From Bacilli bacterium (GTDB lineage: Bacteria; Bacillota_I; Bacilli_A; RF39; UBA660): DNA of 12,911 bases. The notes under the pieces are model-generated. The model saw nothing but the letters and a program-made list of their open reading frames with translations. It was not told the DNA's origin and made no database searches. The stretch spans positions 1 to 12,911 of the forward strand of contig JAAWCI010000043.1 in the NCBI GenBank assembly GCA_022793145.1. Reading direction: 5' to 3'. Position numbers and translations under genes: made by a program. This document shows positions 5,556-12,911 of this stretch, in pieces (position 1 is the stretch's first letter; each line of letters starts with the position of its first letter).

Positions 5556-5582
5556 AATAAAAAAAGAAGTAGATACTTCCTT
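5556..5582 (-). terminator. Intrinsic terminator of the prfB-yitT-ftsEX operon
   Basis: In the minus transcript AAGGAAGT pairs with ACTTCTTT around the loop ATCT (5563-5582), followed by a U-run encoded by the A-tract at 5559-5565. The 5' arm begins inside the ftsX stop codon. It faces the RluA gene terminator across about 50 bases. Confidence 0.75.
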
Positions 5583-6480
5583 ATATTTTTAAATGTTTTC
5601 TAACTGCTCTCCAGCTTCCAAACATTCCCACTAAAATACCAATTACCAATAGAACCATTGATACAACATAAATAAATGGCTCTGGTTTAATCAGTTTGAT
5701 AAAAGGTGAAAATAATTGTCCATTAAAATTGTTATAAAGTGCTGTATATCCATAAATAGTAGCTAATATTGGGATAATTGCTCCAAACATTCCTAAAAAC
5801 AATCCTTCAAATAAAAATGGTATTTTGATATTTAAGTTACTGGCTCCTACAAGTCGCATAATTTCAATTTCTCTTTTTCTTGAGAAAATTGTAATCTTAA
5901 TTGTATTTGCAATTAAGAAAGCAGTTACAATGATAAGTGCTATAACCATGCCAATACTAATTTTCTTTACAACATCAAATACTGTTACTAATTGTTCTAC
6001 CATTCCTTCTCCATATTTAACAACACTAACATGGTCGATCTCTTTTATTTGATTGGCTGTCTTTTTTATAAGATCAATATCTTTTACTTTCACTTGATAT
6101 GTATCTTGAATCGGATTTTCTTCTTCGTCATAATTTCCTAAAATATTTTTAAAAACATCAGAAGATTCCATCATTTCTTTTGAAATAGACATTTTATCTT
6201 GAAATTCAATAGAAGCAATATTATCTAAAACATCAATACTATCTCTTACATCTTCAATCTGTTCTTTTGTTATATCACGATCCAAAAATACTACAATTGT
6301 AACATCTTTTTCAACTAATGTCGCAAAGTTATTTACATTATCAGATAAAATCATAGCTAAAGCAACCACAATTAATGTAATTGTAATACAAGAAATAGAC
6401 GCCAATGAAAGAGAAAAATTTCTAAAGACACTTTTAAAAGCATCTCTAATATTTCTACTTAAAATTCTAAATCCCCTCAT
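5581..6480 (-). CDS. ftsX: Cell-division ABC transporter-like permease FtsX
   Basis: A 299-residue FtsX: membrane partner of FtsE, which in Gram-positive bacteria activates peptidoglycan hydrolases from the outside. It has a basic cytoplasmic N-terminus (MRGFRILSRNIRDAFKSVFRN), a first membrane helix at about 25-48, an extracellular domain at about 50-170 (KDVTIVVFLDRDITKEQIEDV), and three C-terminal helices near 173-198, 220-245 and 266-288. The conserved FtsX loop RKREIEIMRLVGAS is at 201-214. The start at 6478-6480 is preferred over an upstream in-frame ATG at 6499-6501 because AAAGGAA lies about 9 bases before it while the longer version lacks a ribosome binding site. It overlaps ftsE by 14 bases, so translation is coupled. 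The protein is of normal length. A partner hydrolase is not encoded in the window. Confidence 0.95.
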   Translation of the reverse strand: MRGFRILSRNIRDAFKSVFRNFSLSLASISCITITLIVVALAMILSDNVNNFATLVEKDVTIVVFLDRDITKEQIEDVRDSIDVLDNIASIEFQDKMSISKEMMESSDVFKNILGNYDEEENPIQDTYQVKVKDIDLIKKTANQIKEIDHVSVVKYGEGMVEQLVTVFDVVKKISIGMVIALIIVTAFLIANTIKITIFSRKREIEIMRLVGASNLNIKIPFLFEGLFLGMFGAIIPILATIYGYTALYNNFNGQLFSPFIKLIKPEPFIYVVSMVLLVIGILVGMFGSWRAVRKHLKI

Positions 6481-7162
6481 GTTTATATGTTCCTTTCTCA
6501 TAATCTTTTAATATGCGCCCTGAATCTAATAAAATAACTCTTTTTTTCATTTTGTCTACAATTTCTGTATCATGTGTTACCATAATAATGGTTGTTCCCA
6601 TTTGATTGATTGCATCTAATACTGACATAATTTCCATACTTGTATTCTCATCCAAATTTCCTGTTGGTTCATCACAGATAAGAAGCTTTGGCCCATTGAT
6701 AATCGCTCTTGCAATTGCTACACGTTGTTGCTCTCCACCTGATAATTCAGTAGGATAATTTTTGGCTTTGTGTTTTAAACCAACTAATTCTAAAGCTTTA
6801 AGAACTTTAGTGTGAATCTCTTTCTTTGGAGTTCCAAAAACTTCTAATGCAAATGCCACATTTTCATAAACGGTTGAGCGATTAAGAAGCTTAAAGTCTT
6901 GAAAAACAACTCCCAATTTTCTACGCAGTTTGTATACTTTTCCATTTCTTAACTTTGCTACATCAATTCCACCTACAATTATTTTCCCACTGGTTGGTTT
7001 TTCTTCACGATAAAGCATTTTAATTAAAGTGGATTTCCCACATCCAGTAGAGCCAATGATAAAAACAAAATCACCTTTTTCGATTCTTAAGTCAAGATCA
7101 TAAATGGCAGTCACGCCATTTTTATATCGCTTATTTACATCTTTCATTCTAATTAAATCCAT
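6467..7162 (-). CDS. ftsE: Cell-division ATP-binding protein FtsE
   Basis: A 231-residue ABC ATPase. Walker A is GSTGCGKST (37-45), the Q-loop Gln is at 88 in VVFQDF, the signature is LSGGEQQR (140-147), Walker B is LLICDEPT (160-167), and the switch His is at 197 in MVTHDTE. The N-terminal MDLIRMKDVNKRY and the normal FtsE length of about 225-230 residues agree with FtsE, and the next gene is ftsX. FtsE binds FtsX on the cytoplasmic face and uses ATP hydrolysis to drive conformational signalling to wall hydrolases at the septum. AGGTGG lies a few bases upstream of the ATG, and only 11 bases separate it from the YitT-family gene. No residue of the catalytic set is missing. Confidence 0.97.
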   Translation of the reverse strand: MDLIRMKDVNKRYKNGVTAIYDLDLRIEKGDFVFIIGSTGCGKSTLIKMLYREEKPTSGKIIVGGIDVAKLRNGKVYKLRRKLGVVFQDFKLLNRSTVYENVAFALEVFGTPKKEIHTKVLKALELVGLKHKAKNYPTELSGGEQQRVAIARAIINGPKLLICDEPTGNLDENTSMEIMSVLDAINQMGTTIIMVTHDTEIVDKMKKRVILLDSGRILKDYEKGTYKHEGI

Positions 7163-7173
7163 TTTTCCACCTC

Positions 7174-8058
7174 TTATTCTCCACCTGCTACTTCATATGC
7201 ATCAGTCACTAAAAAAAATGCATTAGGATCAATTTTCTTAATTCCTTCTTTGGCTACAAAATATTCTTTTGTTGGAATAATACACATAATTACTTTTTGA
7301 CGGTCTCCAGTGTACCCTCCTCTTCCATCTAAGATGGTAACTCCATGGCTTAGATAATTTAAAATAAATTTTTTTACTTCTGTCTCATAATCTGTAATGA
7401 TATAAAATGCTTTGGACTGACTAATTCCTAATATTACTTTATCCGTCATAACGCTAATTAAATAAATTGAAATAACAGAATACATAAATTTTTGAAAACC
7501 AAATACAAAGAAACTAATACCAACTATAATGCCATCTGTAAAAAACATTGCATTTCCGATGGACATTTTAAAATATTTTGATACAATTTGATTCAAAATA
7601 TCTGTTCCACCCGTTGTGAATCCTGCTTTAAATATCATTCCTAATCCAAATCCACTAATTGCTGCTCCAAATAATGCAATAACTACTGGTTCTGTCGATC
7701 CCAAATCAATCAAAGTTGCCATAGGCTCTGTCAATTTTACAAAGACTGGATATAACAAAGAACCAATTACCGTATTGGCAGTTTTTTCTTTTCCTAAAAA
7801 TATCAAACTTAATAAAAGCAAAAATATAGAACCAATCAGAATAACAAAAGATGGATCCAAATGATAGAGCTTATTCAAAATAACAGCAACTCCACTTACC
7901 CCATATACAACTTGACTAGGTAATAGAAATACATTAAAAGCCAAGGATACTAAAAATAATCCTAATAAAAATTCTGCATATCTTACTAATTTATCTTTCG
8001 CATAAATAGATTTTATAATATTTGGATCAATAATACTTTCTTTTCTTCTAAAAAACAT
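7174..8058 (-). CDS. YitT-family (DUF161/DUF2179) membrane protein
   Basis: A 294-residue protein of the YitT family: about five to six membrane helices (near residues 27-45, 50-62, 70-88, 93-108, 123-145, 165-185 and 193-210; boundaries uncertain), with the DUF161 motif GFTTGGTDI at 146-154. A soluble C-terminal DUF2179 domain follows, with GVTILDGRGGYTGD at 239-252. The biochemical function of the family is unsettled; it is usually listed as a membrane protein of unknown role, and DUF2179 is thought to be a small ligand-binding domain. It sits between prfB and ftsE, 3 bases after the prfB stop, with its AGAGGTG ribosome binding site inside the prfB end, so it is coupled to prfB translation. 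Length and motifs are complete. Confidence 0.92.
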   Translation of the reverse strand: MFFRRKESIIDPNIIKSIYAKDKLVRYAEFLLGLFLVSLAFNVFLLPSQVVYGVSGVAVILNKLYHLDPSFVILIGSIFLLLLSLIFLGKEKTANTVIGSLLYPVFVKLTEPMATLIDLGSTEPVVIALFGAAISGFGLGMIFKAGFTTGGTDILNQIVSKYFKMSIGNAMFFTDGIIVGISFFVFGFQKFMYSVISIYLISVMTDKVILGISQSKAFYIITDYETEVKKFILNYLSHGVTILDGRGGYTGDRQKVIMCIIPTKEYFVAKEGIKKIDPNAFFLVTDAYEVAGGE

Positions 8059-8061
8059 ATT

Positions 8062-9148
8062 CTAGCACCTCTTTAAATTCTCCTCCATAAAGAAATCGAT
8101 ATCACCATCTAATACTTTTCCAACATTACTTGTTTCAATATTGGTTCTATGATCTTTTACCATTGAATATGGATGCATGACATAACTTCTAATTTGAGAA
8201 CCAAAATTGATATCCATTTGTTCCCCTTTTAAGCTTTTCATTTCTTGTTCTCTTTTTTCTTGTTCTTGTTGATAAAGCTTATTCTTTAATATTTCCATTG
8301 CCTTTTCTTTATTTTGAATCTGACTTCTCTCATTTTGGCAAGTAACAACAATTTTGCTTGGAAAATGGGTAATTCTAACTGCACTATCAGTAGTATTTAC
8401 ACCTTGTCCACCGTTTCCACTGCTTCTATAAACATCAATTCTAATATCAGTCTCTTTGATTTCAATGTCAATATTGCTTTGTTCTAAAAATGGGGTTACT
8501 TCTACCGAAGCAAATGAAGTATGTCTTCTAGCATTAGAATCAAATGGAGAGATTCTTACCAATCTATGAACTCCACGCTCATTTTTTAAATAACCAAATG
8601 AATGAATTCCTTTTACCAAAAACGAAATGCTTTTAATTCCTACTTCCTCTCCAGGTTGTTCATAAATAATTTCATAAGTAAAATTTTTCTTATCGCACCA
8701 TCTCGCATACATACGGAAAAGCATTTCTGCCCAATCACAAGCTTCTGTTCCTCCTGCTCCACTATGAATTTCTACAATAGAATTTCCTTCATCATATGGA
8801 CCGTTAAATAATGTTTCTATCTCTAATTTTTTTAATCTTTCATCAATGCTTACAATAGAAAGCTCTAATTCTTTTTCTACATCTTTATCATTTAATTCAC
8901 ACATTTCTAAAGAAAGATCGATTTCCGACTGTAAAGTTTCCAAGCTTTCTACAGAACTTTTTAAATTATTCAGCTCACCAATAATCGTTTCACTGTATCT
9001 TTTGTCATCCCAAAAATTAGATTGTAACATGGTTTGCTCTAATTCTTGTATACGTTTCTTTTTTGTAGAAGGGTCAAAGTAACCTCCCTAATTCATTAAT
9101 TTTTATTTGATAATTTTCATAAGTACTTTTTAATTCATTATGTTCCAC
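8062..9148 (-). CDS. prfB: Peptide chain release factor 2, programmed +1 frameshift
   Basis: A 361-residue RF2 made from two frames. The first 24 codons run from a GTG at 9146-9148 (MEHNELKSTYENYQIKINEL) to CTT at 9077-9079. An in-frame TGA (9074-9076) follows, and +1 slippage continues with GAC into DPSTKKKRI and on to the TAG at 8062. The stop-codon motif SPF is at residues 200-202 and the catalytic GGQ (RSSGNGGQGVN) at 246-248. RF2 recognises UGA and UAA and releases finished peptides. The GTG start is chosen because AGGAGG lies 7 bases upstream and because the ATG two bases ahead, in another frame, hits a stop after six codons. The frameshift lets RF2 sense its own level. It is the first gene of an operon with yitT-like, ftsE and ftsX genes. 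Confidence 0.95.
9073..9089 (-). promoter_or_regulatory. prfB: prfB autoregulatory +1 frameshift site
   Basis: The minus strand shows the hallmark order: Shine-Dalgarno-like AGGGAGG (9083-9089), one TTA codon, then slippery CTT, TGA and C (9073-9079). The spacing matches the classic RF2 signal. The protein is continuous only if ribosomes shift +1 at CTT. Confidence 0.95.
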
Positions 9149-9170
9149 ATTCAATCCTCCTAACTATAAC

Positions 9171-9179
9171 ATTATAACA
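9171..9179 (-). promoter_or_regulatory. Promoter of the prfB operon (extended -10)
   Basis: Minus-strand TGT plus TATAAT (-10 at 9171-9176) lies about 10 bases before AGGAGG. A weak TAGGAA 17 bases upstream may serve as -35. The predicted leader is about 16 nt. Confidence 0.6.
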
Positions 9180-9215
9180 TTTTTTTATTAAAATTCCTAT
9201 GTATTTTAAAAATAA

Positions 9216-9244
9216 TAAAAGAAAAACAAGGTTTTCTAACCCTG
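9216..9244 (-). terminator. Intrinsic terminator of the DUF4015-yutD operon
   Basis: In minus RNA CAGGGTT pairs with AACCTTG (one G-U) around the loop AGAA (9227-9244), followed by TTTTTC then TTTTA. It starts right after the TAG of the 259-residue gene. Confidence 0.85.
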
Positions 9245-10024
9245 CTATTTTATATCTGCTGTTATTCGTTTATAAGACTTGCAAAATTCACTAATAACTC
9301 TCTGCATTTCTTCTTCTGTTAATTCCACCCCATTTTTATGATAGCGGGTTTCTATTATCTTTTCTAAAACCATACTGACATAATGAAAAGGAAAGCTAGA
9401 TAGTATAGATTGATTTTCTGTTTTTGGAAATTTACTTGAACTTGGAATATCATTTCCTGTTACAACGTATAAATCCATTGCATTTCTATTCTCTAATTCT
9501 ACTCTTATTGTATCTTCTAATTGCAATTTAGTTGCTAATTCTCTTGGAAGTGGCTTCATAACAGGAGAATTATTTATATGAAATGGATACATTGTCCCCG
9601 ATAGCTGATCCAAAAGTGGTGCTTCTAAATCTTTCCTATTTGTAGTTACAAAAGAGACAACTTTATAAAATGGACGGTTTATCTCATCTATCTGAAATCC
9701 GTGCTTTACCAACCTAGTTGCATAAAAATATGGAGTACTTTCTTGCTCTGTTAATATAGTTGCAATAACTTTTCCTAACAATTCATAATGAAATGTTCTA
9801 CTTTGACTAATTTTCTTCCATTCTACTTTTATCCATTCCTGCTTTTGTTCAATAGAATTTTTATGTTGTTTTAAATATTCTTTCAATTTAGATAATTTTT
9901 CTAAATCAACAGCATTTAACGAACTATTAAGAAATCTTTCCTGCTCCTCCATGTACTGAGCATATTCATTAATCATGGAAGCTACTTGTAAAAATCGTTC
10001 ATTTATTTGTTCTAAAGTTTTCAT
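9245..10024 (-). CDS. Hypothetical protein with N-terminal coiled coil
   Basis: A 259-residue soluble protein I do not recognise. The first 80 residues are charged and helical with heptad-like leucines (EKLSKLKEYLKQHKNSIEQK), so a coiled coil is likely. The rest is mixed alpha/beta, with an aromatic stretch PYFYATRLVKHGFQIDEI near 98-115 and a helical acidic-basic tail (ELTEEEMQRVISEFCKSYKR). There is no signal peptide or membrane helix, so it should be cytoplasmic. It is the last gene of the operon, directly abutting yutD (its ATG follows the yutD TAA without a gap) and lacking a clear ribosome binding site of its own, so translation probably depends on termination of yutD. An operon terminator follows immediately. 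The only clue to function is its link to YutD and a surface glycosyl hydrolase-like protein. Confidence 0.8.
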   Translation of the reverse strand: MKTLEQINERFLQVASMINEYAQYMEEQERFLNSSLNAVDLEKLSKLKEYLKQHKNSIEQKQEWIKVEWKKISQSRTFHYELLGKVIATILTEQESTPYFYATRLVKHGFQIDEINRPFYKVVSFVTTNRKDLEAPLLDQLSGTMYPFHINNSPVMKPLPRELATKLQLEDTIRVELENRNAMDLYVVTGNDIPSSSKFPKTENQSILSSFPFHYVSMVLEKIIETRYHKNGVELTEEEMQRVISEFCKSYKRITADIK

Positions 10025-10303
10025 TTATTTGCACTTTTTTAAAATGAAATAGCGACATTCATAGGAACAATAATCTTTCAAATATTGTTCTACTTTTTCT
10101 ATGTCATTTCCCTTTCTATATAATTTATTTTCTTTATCACAAAATCCTTTTAATCGTAATTTTCCATATGACCAATCACCTACAATATAGTCATAGGGAT
10201 CAAAATATTCTGTGTCTTTATTTATTACTTCATCTAATAAGAAGCCATCTTTATAATCTTTTAATAATTCATATTCATAATGATTCATTTTATATTTTTT
10301 CAT
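10025..10303 (-). CDS. yutD: YutD-family protein (DUF1027)
   Basis: A 92-residue protein with the family core YDYIVGDWSYGKLRLKGF (37-54) and the C-terminal YCSYECRYFILKK (78-90), matching Bacillus YutD, a small conserved Bacillota protein of unknown function. Two Cys near the end (79 and 83) could pair or bind metal; this is inference. The ribosome binding site AAAGGAG sits in the last codons of the upstream gene, which ends 3 bases before this gene, and the stop abuts the next start. It has no signal peptide and should be cytoplasmic. Recognition rests on the GDW and LRLKGF motifs. Confidence 0.88.
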   Translation of the reverse strand: MKKYKMNHYEYELLKDYKDGFLLDEVINKDTEYFDPYDYIVGDWSYGKLRLKGFCDKENKLYRKGNDIEKVEQYLKDYCSYECRYFILKKCK

Positions 10304-10306
10304 TTA

Positions 10307-11974
10307 TTACTCCTTTTCAAATGCTGGTGCTATTTCATTATACTTTGATAAACTTGATGCTGCATTCCAAGTCATAAAACCACCAGTTAATCCAGCATCT
10401 TCTAATGCATCAATTTGTTCTTTTATTTTTGTACTATCATAAACAATATACGGTTCTCTTACTGTATTATATGCTTGAATCCAAGTTCTCACTACTGCTG
10501 GAGTAGGAATTTCCTGTTGTCTTACATTTGCATATCCATTTCCCCATGCATATAAAAGCTTATATGGAACTGTCCATACAATATCTTTAATTCCATATTC
10601 ATAAGCTCCGAAATGATCTGGATACGGCATTGCACTGATTACATCAACAACATTAGAAATAGCTCCCCAATATTGTCCATACCCAGTTACATAATTATGA
10701 GCACTTTCTCCAAATACATCTGCTGATACATAAGCTCTAACTTCGTGAATTTGATCACAAGCATACATTAGAAATGTTTGAATTGCCTGTGCTTTTGTTT
10801 CGTTATATGTATTTTTTAAATTCATTTCTCCATTTTTTTCTAATGCATATGTACGATCTGGGAAACGAACATAATCAAACTGGATTTCATGAAATCCCAT
10901 CTCTACAACTGCTTCTTTTGCCAATTCAACATTAAATTCCCATACATCTCTATTGTAAGCACTTGGCCAATAAGAGCCATTATGTTTATATGGATTCCCA
11001 GCACTATCCGCTATCGCTGCTTCTGGGTGATCTGTTACATAATAACTATCTTTAAATACTGTAATTCTGCCAATTACATAGAATCCATTCTCTTTTAATT
11101 TTTGAATTGCATTTTTATAGTCATCAAAACTATTAATCGCATGATTAAAATTAGTTTTTGAATATTTTTCCATAACTTTACTTTTATAAGCTGGAGCTGT
11201 ATTGTCTTTGATATCCACAACAAATGCATTGATATTGGTATTCTTTGCAATTTCAATATATTTATCTACATCTTTTATAACACCTGCATTTAAATATAAA
11301 CTTCTAACTTTTTCTGGCATTTTGTTTTCTTCAAATTTTGCCTTTTCATAAGGATAAAAATCTAAACTTCCTGCATCTCCTCCACCTTGTGTATTTGTAC
11401 GTTTCAAATGAACCTGATAACTATTATTTTCATCATAGTTTTTCATAGCTTCTTCTTTTGTACTAACGAGGTACTTGCTGTAAACAAATCCCTCTGACCC
11501 ATTATACATGATTTTGTATTTGGGTGCAAATCCATTTTCTAATGTATTAAATCCAATAATTTTAACAGGTTCACCCTTTTTAATTAATCCTAATATTTCA
11601 CTGCTTTTGTCCTCTTTATAAACTGTTGTATTGGTTCTAACAAATAATTCTTCTTCATAGATTACTTTATTATAAGTATCTACTATATTTTCTGATTTAA
11701 ATAAAAATGTCGATCCTTCAATCTTCACTTTTTTATATTCTTGTTTTGTTATTTCACCAATGATAGTTTGGTCATAAAGTTCTACTTTAGTACCACGATA
11801 AAATTCATTCACTTCCTTATATTTTTCATCATAAGCTTTTACTTTTATTTCAAGAGATCCCAAATAAGCTATATTCAGTTTCTCTGGTTTTATAACTTCT
11901 TTCTTTGTTAAAAATAAAAATCCAACACCTAAAATTATTCCTATCAAAAATGTTATTGCCAATATTTTTTTCAT
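10307..11974 (-). CDS. DUF4015 putative glycosyl hydrolase with SH3-like region
   Basis: A 555-residue cell-surface protein. Residues 5-23 form a signal anchor (ILAITFLIGIILGVGFLFL). Residues 105-172 resemble a bacterial SH3 domain (LFVRTNTTVY, GFVYSKYLVS), usually wall-binding. From about 222 onwards is a TIM-barrel-like DUF4015 domain: VRSLYLNAG (223-231), FVVDIKDN (251-258), IGRITVFKD (301-309), the family hallmark HEIQFDYVRFP (362-372), and VSADVFGE (416-423). The acidic residues in FDYVRFP and ADVFGE are candidates for catalysis. The substrate is unknown; a cell-wall or capsular polysaccharide is plausible for a protein with an SH3-like wall-binding region. The ATG at 11972-11974 follows AGGTGA. 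It is first in an operon with yutD and an unknown protein. Confidence 0.9.
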   Translation of the reverse strand: MKKILAITFLIGIILGVGFLFLTKKEVIKPEKLNIAYLGSLEIKVKAYDEKYKEVNEFYRGTKVELYDQTIIGEITKQEYKKVKIEGSTFLFKSENIVDTYNKVIYEEELFVRTNTTVYKEDKSSEILGLIKKGEPVKIIGFNTLENGFAPKYKIMYNGSEGFVYSKYLVSTKEEAMKNYDENNSYQVHLKRTNTQGGGDAGSLDFYPYEKAKFEENKMPEKVRSLYLNAGVIKDVDKYIEIAKNTNINAFVVDIKDNTAPAYKSKVMEKYSKTNFNHAINSFDDYKNAIQKLKENGFYVIGRITVFKDSYYVTDHPEAAIADSAGNPYKHNGSYWPSAYNRDVWEFNVELAKEAVVEMGFHEIQFDYVRFPDRTYALEKNGEMNLKNTYNETKAQAIQTFLMYACDQIHEVRAYVSADVFGESAHNYVTGYGQYWGAISNVVDVISAMPYPDHFGAYEYGIKDIVWTVPYKLLYAWGNGYANVRQQEIPTPAVVRTWIQAYNTVREPYIVYDSTKIKEQIDALEDAGLTGGFMTWNAASSLSKYNEIAPAFEKE

Positions 11975-11993
11975 AAATTCACCTACTATAGTT

Positions 11994-12002
11994 AGTATAA
12001 CA
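11994..12002 (-). promoter_or_regulatory. Promoter of the DUF4015 operon (extended -10)
   Basis: Minus-strand TGT then TATACT (11994-11999), followed within about 8 bases by AGGTGA and the ATG. No convincing -35 at 16-18 bases; the upstream DNA is an A/T run that may act as an UP element. Leader of about 12 nt. Confidence 0.55.
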
Positions 12003-12031
12003 TCTTTTAAATTTTTTATAAAATTTGTAAA

Positions 12032-12067
12032 AAAAGAAAATTTTTAATTTTATAAAAATTTTCTTTT
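12032..12067. terminator. AT-only palindrome, possible bidirectional terminator
   Basis: Arms 12032-12046 and 12053-12067 are perfect 15-base inverted repeats around a 6-nt loop, each arm ending in T-rich sequence in its own direction. It lies downstream of the surface-protein gene and upstream of the DUF4015 promoter. The nearly G+C-free stem is weak, so termination is plausible but not certain. Confidence 0.45.
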
Positions 12068-12080
12068 ATAAATATATATA

Positions 12081-12136
12081 AGTAGCCCCCAATATTAGAA
12101 TAGAAATAGAAATGAAGTTAAATATCGAGGGCTGCT
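12081..12136 (-). terminator. Long hairpin downstream of the surface-protein gene
   Basis: Arms 12081-12096 and 12121-12136 pair over 16 positions with a 24-nt loop. In minus RNA there are two G-U pairs and one C-A mismatch; on the plus strand there is one G-U pair and two mismatches, so the minus transcript folds better. A GGGGGCTACT arm gives real stability. The sequence after it is AU-rich (TATATATATTTAT) but not a U-run. It is the likely 3' end of the surface-protein mRNA, 80 bases after its stop. Confidence 0.5.
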
Positions 12137-12215
12137 TCTAAACACATATATAAGATTGATAGATTTTTTAGAACATGTCTATCTTACTATGTGGTTAGAC
12201 ATTATTCATCTTCTA

Positions 12216-12911
12216 TCATTTTGTTAATATATATGGATCTGTTTTAGTTCCTGTTCCACTTTTTATTTTAACATCTGATGTTAAGAATAATACTGGGCGC
12301 ACACCACTCGCGAAAGTCACGGTGTCGTAGCTGTAGTTGCTGTAGACATTCCCGGCCGCACCCACAAAGAACGCATTGCCCGAGGTGCTGCTACGCGGAG
12401 TCAGCGTCCATTGCCACTGAGAACTGTTAAATAGCCAACTCTTCTCTGCACATTCTGCTTTTGCTGCACTTCCATCCCAGTTATATAAATTAGTAGTATC
12501 ACATGTACTTCCTCCACTTGACGCATACGCATAATCGCTTGGGTACATCAATGCAATCTTTCCAGTCCATGTTGTTGGTCTTCCTGAATATATTGTTGTT
12601 CCATTTTCATACTGATACATCTGGGCTCTTGTTATAGATGATGTACTCCATCCTCCTAATTTCCATACATGACTCTGATCTACCATTGCCTGTGATGTGG
12701 CATTTATTGTATTCCAATATGTTGTATTGAACTCTGTCATCAATGATGCTTGACTCCAATCATTTTTATCTACTGAATTCCATGCCATTGTTGTATTCTT
12801 ATAGAATTGCCCTTCTGTTGTATAATTTCCCCAATATATGATCTTCATTTGACCATTAAATACTCCTATTATTCTATATGCCTCTCCATTAAATGTTACA
12901 AAGTTATTTGG
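12216..12911 (-). CDS. Secreted surface protein, C-terminal part; N-terminus beyond the window
   Basis: The reading frame is open to the window edge; the first visible residues are PNNFVTFNGEAYRIIG, and the Met at 12846-12848 is internal because coding continues upstream without a ribosome binding site. The visible 231 residues are rich in Trp, Tyr, Ser, Thr and Asn, with IALMYPSDYAYA, two Cys near CDTTNLYNW and AECAEK, LFNSSQWQWTLTP, and GVRPVLFL near the end. The pattern (FNGE.YRIIG ... WTLTP ... GVRPV) is typical of C-type-lectin-like (DUF6273-like) domains on proteins of uncultured gut Bacillota; the assignment is from memory of such repeats. Codon use is AT-rich except for the segment 12292-12410, described separately. 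It is probably displayed on the surface and binds a ligand. It is followed by two hairpins. Confidence 0.8.
   Translation of the reverse strand, partial: PNNFVTFNGEAYRIIGVFNGQMKIIYWGNYTTEGQFYKNTTMAWNSVDKNDWSQASLMTEFNTTYWNTINATSQAMVDQSHVWKLGGWSTSSITRAQMYQYENGTTIYSGRPTTWTGKIALMYPSDYAYASSGGSTCDTTNLYNWDGSAAKAECAEKSWLFNSSQWQWTLTPRSSTSGNAFFVGAAGNVYSNYSYDTVTFASGVRPVLFLTSDVKIKSGTGTKTDPYILTK
12268..12284 (-). repeat. Perfect palindrome just after the G+C-rich segment
   Basis: Minus strand TTAACAT, CAG, ATGTTAA: 7-bp arms and a 3-nt loop (8 bp if only the central A is unpaired). It lies inside the coding sequence (Leu-Thr-Ser-Asp-Val-Lys) about 8 bases after the G+C-rich segment ends, the place where retroelement target sites carry a hairpin. 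Confidence 0.6.
12292..12410 (-). other. Candidate DGR variable region: G+C-rich codon-biased island
   Basis: By hand count 12291-12410 holds 72 G+C of 120 (60%). Codons in this segment end mostly in C or G (for example CTG, CCG, GGC, GCG, GTG), whereas flanking codons end in A or T. Nine consecutive codons (12321-12347, residues V-Y-S-N-Y-S-Y-D-T) all end in C. The segment covers WTLTP through GVRP, the surface loop of the lectin-like fold. Its downstream end (GGTGTGCGCCC, near 12295-12305) has no adenine. These features match a variable region rewritten by adenine mutagenesis from a template repeat. No template or reverse transcriptase is present in the window. Confidence 0.5.

Follow-up and report, generated by a model that had tools for sequence, protein, structure and literature searches.

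A G+C-rich segment near the 3′ end of a Bacilli gene is very probably the variable region of a diversity-generating retroelement target served in trans

The window that we analyzed is the whole 12,911-nt stretch of contig JAAWCI010000043.1 from a Bacilli bacterium, a 12.9-kb piece that is AT-rich (27.9% G+C) and carries ordinary chromosomal genes. At its right end lies a gene on the minus strand (12216..12911) of which 231 aa are visible; the gene crosses the right edge of the window, and its 5′ part and the N-terminus of the protein lie beyond. Its open reading frame (ORF), its homologs and a structure comparison place a DUF6273-like/C-type-lectin-like domain at the C-terminus. Near the 3′ end of the gene and within the C-type-lectin-like fold, as is expected of the variable region (VR) in a target of a diversity-generating retroelement (DGR), there is a segment of 109 bp (12293..12401, minus strand; ACTCC to GCGCCCAG; G+C 0.606), which we delimited by alignment to a template repeat (TR), TR1, of the related genome G001. 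We find it very probable that this segment is the VR of a DGR target gene that is served in trans.

The original prediction, made from the letters of the window alone, had pointed to an island of about 60% G+C at 12292-12410, a run of nine codons ending in C, an adenine-free downstream end and a palindrome beyond it, and had read the gene as a DGR target whose template and reverse transcriptase (RT) lie elsewhere. We found that the island is there, with a G+C of 0.605 as compared to 0.279 in the whole window; among 109-nt stretches ending before 12200, the highest value is 0.44. In the island, 40% of codons have C at position 3; in the flanking parts of the gene the figure is 6% on the upstream and 4% on the downstream side. 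The nine successive C-ending codons are present as described, on the minus strand from 12347 to 12321 (GTC TAC AGC AAC TAC AGC TAC GAC ACC, encoding V-Y-S-N-Y-S-Y-D-T), and the 3′ end of the segment, GGTGTGCGCCC, does lack adenine. The G/C-rich sequence GGTGTGCGCCCAG (12293..12305, minus strand) that terminates the window VR is identical to the 3′ end of both G001 templates, TR1 and TR2, and presumably has a role like that of the initiation of mutagenic homing (IMH) sequence.

A protein search with the window protein found 81 relatives at E ≤ 0.001. The best of these, P0002, aligns with all of the visible sequence at 57% identity; its N-terminus resembles that of a type IV pilin (PF07963), and it matches DUF6273 below the threshold. 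The window protein itself had no match in a Pfam search, and sequence searches of the PDB with the target family had none. A genome scan for the family found at least 582 relatives, from which 79 loci were kept (78 measurable), with record titles naming Bacilli, Tenericutes, Bacillales, Erysipelotrichaceae, Mycoplasma sp., Bacillota, Candidatus Ventrenecus, Candidatus Caccenecus and one "uncultured bacterium"; two scans of viral contigs found no relative. A G+C island is present at the equivalent ~100-bp segment in 58 of the 78 measured loci and the other 20 fall below the island threshold, so the mark is common and not universal. Averaged over the 78 loci, G+C is 0.514 within the segment, as compared to 0.360 on its upstream and 0.366 on its downstream side, and third-position C across homologous loci is 40% vs 8%.

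We also compared near-identical proteins of the family in 14 pairs chosen from an all-against-all list, with members shared among pairs and 13 pairs measurable. P0063 and P0067 differ at 19 of 30 VR positions and at 5 of 360 outside the VR; the corresponding values are 13/31 and 12/372 for P0008/P0009, and 10/30 and 12/346 for P0019/P0027. Six further pairs have the same VR excess of differences, and the excess is smaller in P0060/P0061 (10/30 vs 41/348) and P0002/P0003 (17/31 vs 116/342).

The DGR machinery is observed in the relatives. A match to the RT profile PF00078, which also matches other kinds of RT, is present in 17 of 18 relatives' genomes, and a DGR-like RT signature (IGNxxSQ, then YMDD, once YSDD) occurs in 19 of 139 loci, some of them overlapping. 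In several of these genomes, template repeats rich in asparagine (Asn) codons accompany the IGNxxSQ RT. We searched 18 RT loci for templates of VRs from the same genomes, considering scores of at least 15 and excluding VR-to-VR rows (L015, L064, L069, L074) from the template-VR counts. Six of the 18 loci have clear pairs: the fraction of changed template adenines as compared to changed other positions is 15/32 vs 0/64 in L014, 20/32 vs 1/64 in L020, 21/36 vs 0/60 in L035, 14/34 vs 2/59 in L056, 16/35 vs 5/58 in L069 and 13/35 vs 3/58 in L074, where a second VR gives 19/35 vs 6/55. L015 has a repeat with frayed edges (13/29 vs 18/64 and 20/29 vs 16/64), the pairs are weak in L026 (12/28 vs 22/68), L064 (17/31 vs 23/62) and L104 (16/36 vs 24/57), and the remaining 8 of the 18 loci gave no pair. 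A translated-motif scan of the RT loci that required a WT.. start returned one irrelevant AT-rich match; the templates have no such start.

In the relative G005, the cassette begins with the target gene, followed by an ORF that weakly matches MutS domain I (E 0.005, short of the Pfam cut-off), then Avd, RT and templates. The order is the same in G001, where Avd and the RT both gave matches; the MutS-like ORF of G001 had no match in PHROGs, the sole database searched for this ORF. Avd was tested in these two genomes and found in both, as an ORF that overlaps the start of the RT and matches phrog_3206 (3.5e-11 in G005, 2.5e-10 in G001). The G005 Avd also matches NF033474 at 3e-7, below NCBI's cut-off, and had no match in a PDB sequence search. 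An ORF beside the G001 cassette is presumably YvcK-like and chromosomal.

Both genomes belong to the genus of the window, which we take as six genomes (G001, G005, G019, G002, G003, G020). Over window positions 5581-8058, identity is 89% to G005 and 87% to G001 and G019, and the next among 291 family genomes reaches 76%. An RT at least 80% identical to that of G005 is present in three of the six congeners: G001, G005 and G019. G001 has two templates 3′ of its RT, at L006 2962-3061 and 3252-3345. We compared VRs of the genus with their templates, skipping two ends at contig starts (L177, L178), and found that the VR of G001 C103 (L140) differs at 16 of 33 adenines and 2 of 67 other positions (p=9e-8), C106 (L001) at 11/30 and 3/64, C63 (L141) at 16/32 and 7/62, and G005 C4 (L144) at 13/31 and 1/75. 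Four G001 VRs sit on four contigs other than that of their templates; the contigs of G001 are short and most of the four targets lie near contig ends, so that "remote" here means on another contig. Since L140 and P0002 have the same VR reading, the closest database relative of the window protein is a DGR target encoded on another contig than its template, which agrees with the prediction that the window's template and RT lie elsewhere.

The window VR differs from G001 TR1 at 16 of 33 adenine positions (p=0.0018; the other positions are weighed below) and from TR2 at 14/32 adenines vs 9/62 others (p=0.0024). The end GTGCGCCCAG is common to the window VR, the G001 templates and the eight templates of G005, and the end pattern read backwards had no match in the six congener genomes. 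The eight G005 templates themselves (p from 0.0065 to 0.086) fit worse than TR1, and were rejected as the source of the window VR. Taken together, the RTs, templates and adenine-biased pairs of the relatives, the bias of the window VR against TR1 and the shared GGTGTGCGCCCAG support the reading of the window gene as a DGR target, which is what the original prediction had proposed.

The templates of the congeners form arrays. In G005 (L144 4832-6754), eight tandem templates lie behind one RT, and one template-matching VR (TR1) was found, from the loci tested and a motif that tolerates two mismatches; more changed VRs would therefore escape. G019 (L178 2282-3932) has eight template-like motif matches 3′ of the RT and one VR-like match, and G003 (L177) has four templates and one more cut by the contig end. 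One non-coding template in G003 is a mutated copy of the template next to it (C60, ~22193-22290 against 22470-22567), with 8 differences in 97 nt, all 8 at adenines, of which there are 27; the chance of this is ~4e-5, or ~0.005 when allowing for ~124 ordered pairs. One more difference, not at an adenine, lies in the leader, and we saw no long ORF over this template. The strongest case after this one, from G019, has 6 differences at adenines and 2 elsewhere.

A conserved tail of ~150 nt lies 3′ of many templates; in G005 the full tail is present on 4 of the 8, as though one tail served several templates. An alignment of 16 tails gives a 34-pair structure in which 92.6% of cells are paired, as compared to 72.9% in shuffles; 26 pairs are changed on both sides, and the covariation score is 0.584 as compared to 0.210. 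None of 500 shuffles reaches any of five measures, and sliding the partners by one column halves the pairing; helix 1, which was added by hand, is the weakest at 76.8%. A model of this tail, R1, has matches in 13 of 117 family genomes, including five of the six congeners (not G002), and in three of 247 class genomes, all of which are also in the family sample. Among the 20 matches outside G001, from which training tails are absent, 17 follow a 110-nt stretch in which a single open frame contains 8 or more Asn codons (71 nt where a contig end shortens one of them). The same holds for 2% of 3634 control positions; the three matches that differ are L201, L214 and L210. Rfam had no match for three loci with tails. 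By analogy, the likely counterpart of the tail is the BPP-1 spacer that recruits bRT-Avd (PMC12875486). The more distant genome G129 has five template and tail units on five contigs (L200, L209, L212, L213, L214), one with a shortened template, and one RT match whose frame contains an internal TGA.

These arrays lead us to a tentative proposal, for which we have less than even confidence: the window gene may belong to a form of DGR whose single RT has a store of many alternative templates at its disposal (eight in tandem in G005 and G019, five units in G129), marked singly or in groups by a structured RNA tail. In such a system the templates themselves would be overwritten by mutagenic homing, as the G003 copy suggests, and remote targets such as that of the window would draw on a changing library.

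For the window gene, we envisage that a cassette of this lineage (target gene, MutS-I-like ORF, Avd, RT and one or more templates) would yield a template RNA made of a ~95-105-nt repeat rich in Asn codons and, for many templates, the structured tail. The RT would copy the repeat while misincorporating opposite adenines, and the cDNA would replace the VR of near or far target genes that end in the same G/C-rich sequence. Template AAC and AAT codons would thus turn into NNC and NNT, which would make the segment G+C-rich and C-ending within an AT-rich gene. The genome of the window presumably still carries an RT and a template, and homing presumably occurs. The target protein is probably surface-exposed; altered residues in its C-type-lectin-like domain would change what it binds.

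Several observations weigh against assigning the window gene to a DGR. Within the window itself we found no RT and no template (best score negative), as well as no Avd and no match to the R1 model at E up to 10. As compared to TR1, a template from another genome, the window VR has 9 gap columns and 12 differences at 67 non-adenine positions, which implies a different true template, and its adenine bias is weaker with the eight G005 templates than with TR1. Some VRs of the genus match their templates poorly or moderately: 12/33 adenines vs 8/67 others in G001 C18 (L003), 10/28 vs 6/69 in G003 C25 (L145), 12/30 vs 7/67 in G019 C20 (L179) and 15/28 vs 23/69 in G003 C79 (L185; p=0.053). Two protein pairs have no difference in the VR, with 0/30 as compared to 37/351 outside in P0063/P0070 and 0/30 as compared to 2/345 in P0019/P0021. 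G002 lacks both the tail and the end pattern, and its RTs are only 33-41% identical to that of G005; G003 and G020 have templates or the tail but no close RT (the match in G020 is marginal, and in G003, whose template array is cut by the contig end, there is none). The collinear gene of G005 has no island (60-nt maximum G+C 0.45) and differs upstream of 12303, and a hairpin at the place of the window's palindrome was found in none of 10 VR genes of relatives.

Part of this evidence would also fit an orphan VR, one made by a DGR whose RT or matching template has since been lost and which is now frozen and decaying. We regard this as unlikely. It would account for a window with neither template nor RT, eroded cases such as G003 C79 and the island-free syntenic gene of G005 exist, one of the six congeners (G002) is without tail, end pattern and close RT, and leftover target genes without RT and TR are reported for Treponema denticola (PMC4891356). 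However, the frame of the window gene is open, its C-ending codon pattern is kept and its end is still that of the G001 templates, and three of the six congeners have templates together with the close RT, with at least one tail in five of the six. Far less probable is a mechanism with no DGR at all, in which ordinary recombination shuffles a repertoire of paralogs under strong selection for a variable surface; family matches are indeed numerous per genome (12 in G001, 14 in G005), but shuffling can neither confine changes to the adenines of a non-coding template nor explain the RT, Avd and templates. The sharp borders and different codon use could suggest that GC-rich DNA was acquired from another source, or that codon bias is local and tied to no mechanism, but the recurrence of the island at the same place in most homologous loci contradicts this, and we give it the least credence of all. 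A DGR target served in trans thus remains the explanation that we favor.

The inverted repeat that follows the VR (12268..12284, no strand assigned) exists as predicted, with 8-bp arms and one central base, or 7 bp with a 3-nt loop when drawn as a hairpin, and starts ~10 bases after GCGCCC. An equally long hairpin arises in 52 of 2000 base shuffles, and one of the 10 relatives' VR genes has a 6-bp hairpin elsewhere within the 70 nt. As the palindrome is not conserved in these genes, we rejected a homing-hairpin role for it; of all that was observed it has the weakest footing, and it is unfit to support the DGR reading. Just 3′ of the target gene lies a structured element of 141 nt (12070..12210, minus strand; two-hairpin fold, z = -3.8) without an Rfam match. 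Similar elements have 7 matches in congeners, five of which directly follow a target-family match (G019:C21:1017-1153, G005:C3:1503-1627, G005:C1:1695-1819, G003:C25:4900-5033 and G001:C9:487-529), while G005:C22:1325 and G005:C3:55548 do not.

Window positions 5581-12303 are collinear with G005 contig C3 at 86%, and the alignment stops within the 3′ end of the VR. We rejected the idea that the window gene is a plain ortholog of the syntenic G005 gene, as the collinear match spans only the 3′ end and a stretch of 68.7% at 12651-12878. In G019, the sequence corresponding to window 12065-12206, downstream of the gene, is 94% identical and adjoins another target-family gene, which has a smaller G+C rise (60-nt maximum 0.53) and lacks the GNGTGCGCCCAG end. 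Elsewhere in the window, Pfam matches include DUF4015 and YutD-like genes, and we take other ORFs to be prfB-, ftsE- and ftsX-like. Upstream of the prfB-like ORF, at ~9070-9095 (minus strand), GGGAGGTTACTTTGACCC looks like the programmed frameshift site that release factor 2 genes usually carry. At 1-2500, a small secreted-looking protein (2060-2500) adjoins three ORFs rich in membrane-span-like stretches, a locus that to us resembles that of a lactococcin 972-type bacteriocin; the two ORFs tested, 2060-2500 and 1177-1980, had no Pfam match.

These data indicate that base composition and a comparison within the family are enough to recognize a remote DGR target, and the mark recurs in many homologous loci. 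Should the congener arrays prove correct, the choice of a DGR among templates, the evolution of templates by their own mutagenesis and a template-marking RNA tail become testable; the R1 model finds templates without an RT having been found beforehand.

Remote targets, several templates per genome and DUF6273-type targets are already published (PMC4891356, PMC6642488, PMC12386605, PMC11792537, PMC10743442); a tandem array of eight templates, an overwritten template or a covariance model of a DGR tail was not found in our searches, which covered open-license papers. The system resembles the T. denticola TvpA DGR in its C-terminal VR, C-type-lectin/formylglycine-generating enzyme (FGE)-like fold and surface proteins, in having some targets far from the RT and template, and in its changes at Asn codons (PMC4891356). 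As in targets of Faecalibacterium prophages and phages nd4/nd12, the VR lies in a DUF6273 domain with a C-lectin-like fold, and in the Faecalibacterium prophages it is at the C-terminus of that domain, as here; those targets, however, belong to phages (PMC11792537, PMC10743442), whereas the G001 cassette adjoins the YvcK-like chromosomal ORF and has its targets on other contigs. With BPP-1 (Mtd, bRT, Avd), it shares an RT with Avd, adenine mutagenesis, a G/C-rich end (IMH) and a structured spacer RNA after the template. BPP-1 has a stem-loop just after the VR, which helps and is not strictly required, whereas here such a structure is not conserved, and its spacer lies between TR and RT, whereas in G001, G005 and G019 the templates and tails come after the RT (PMC12875486).
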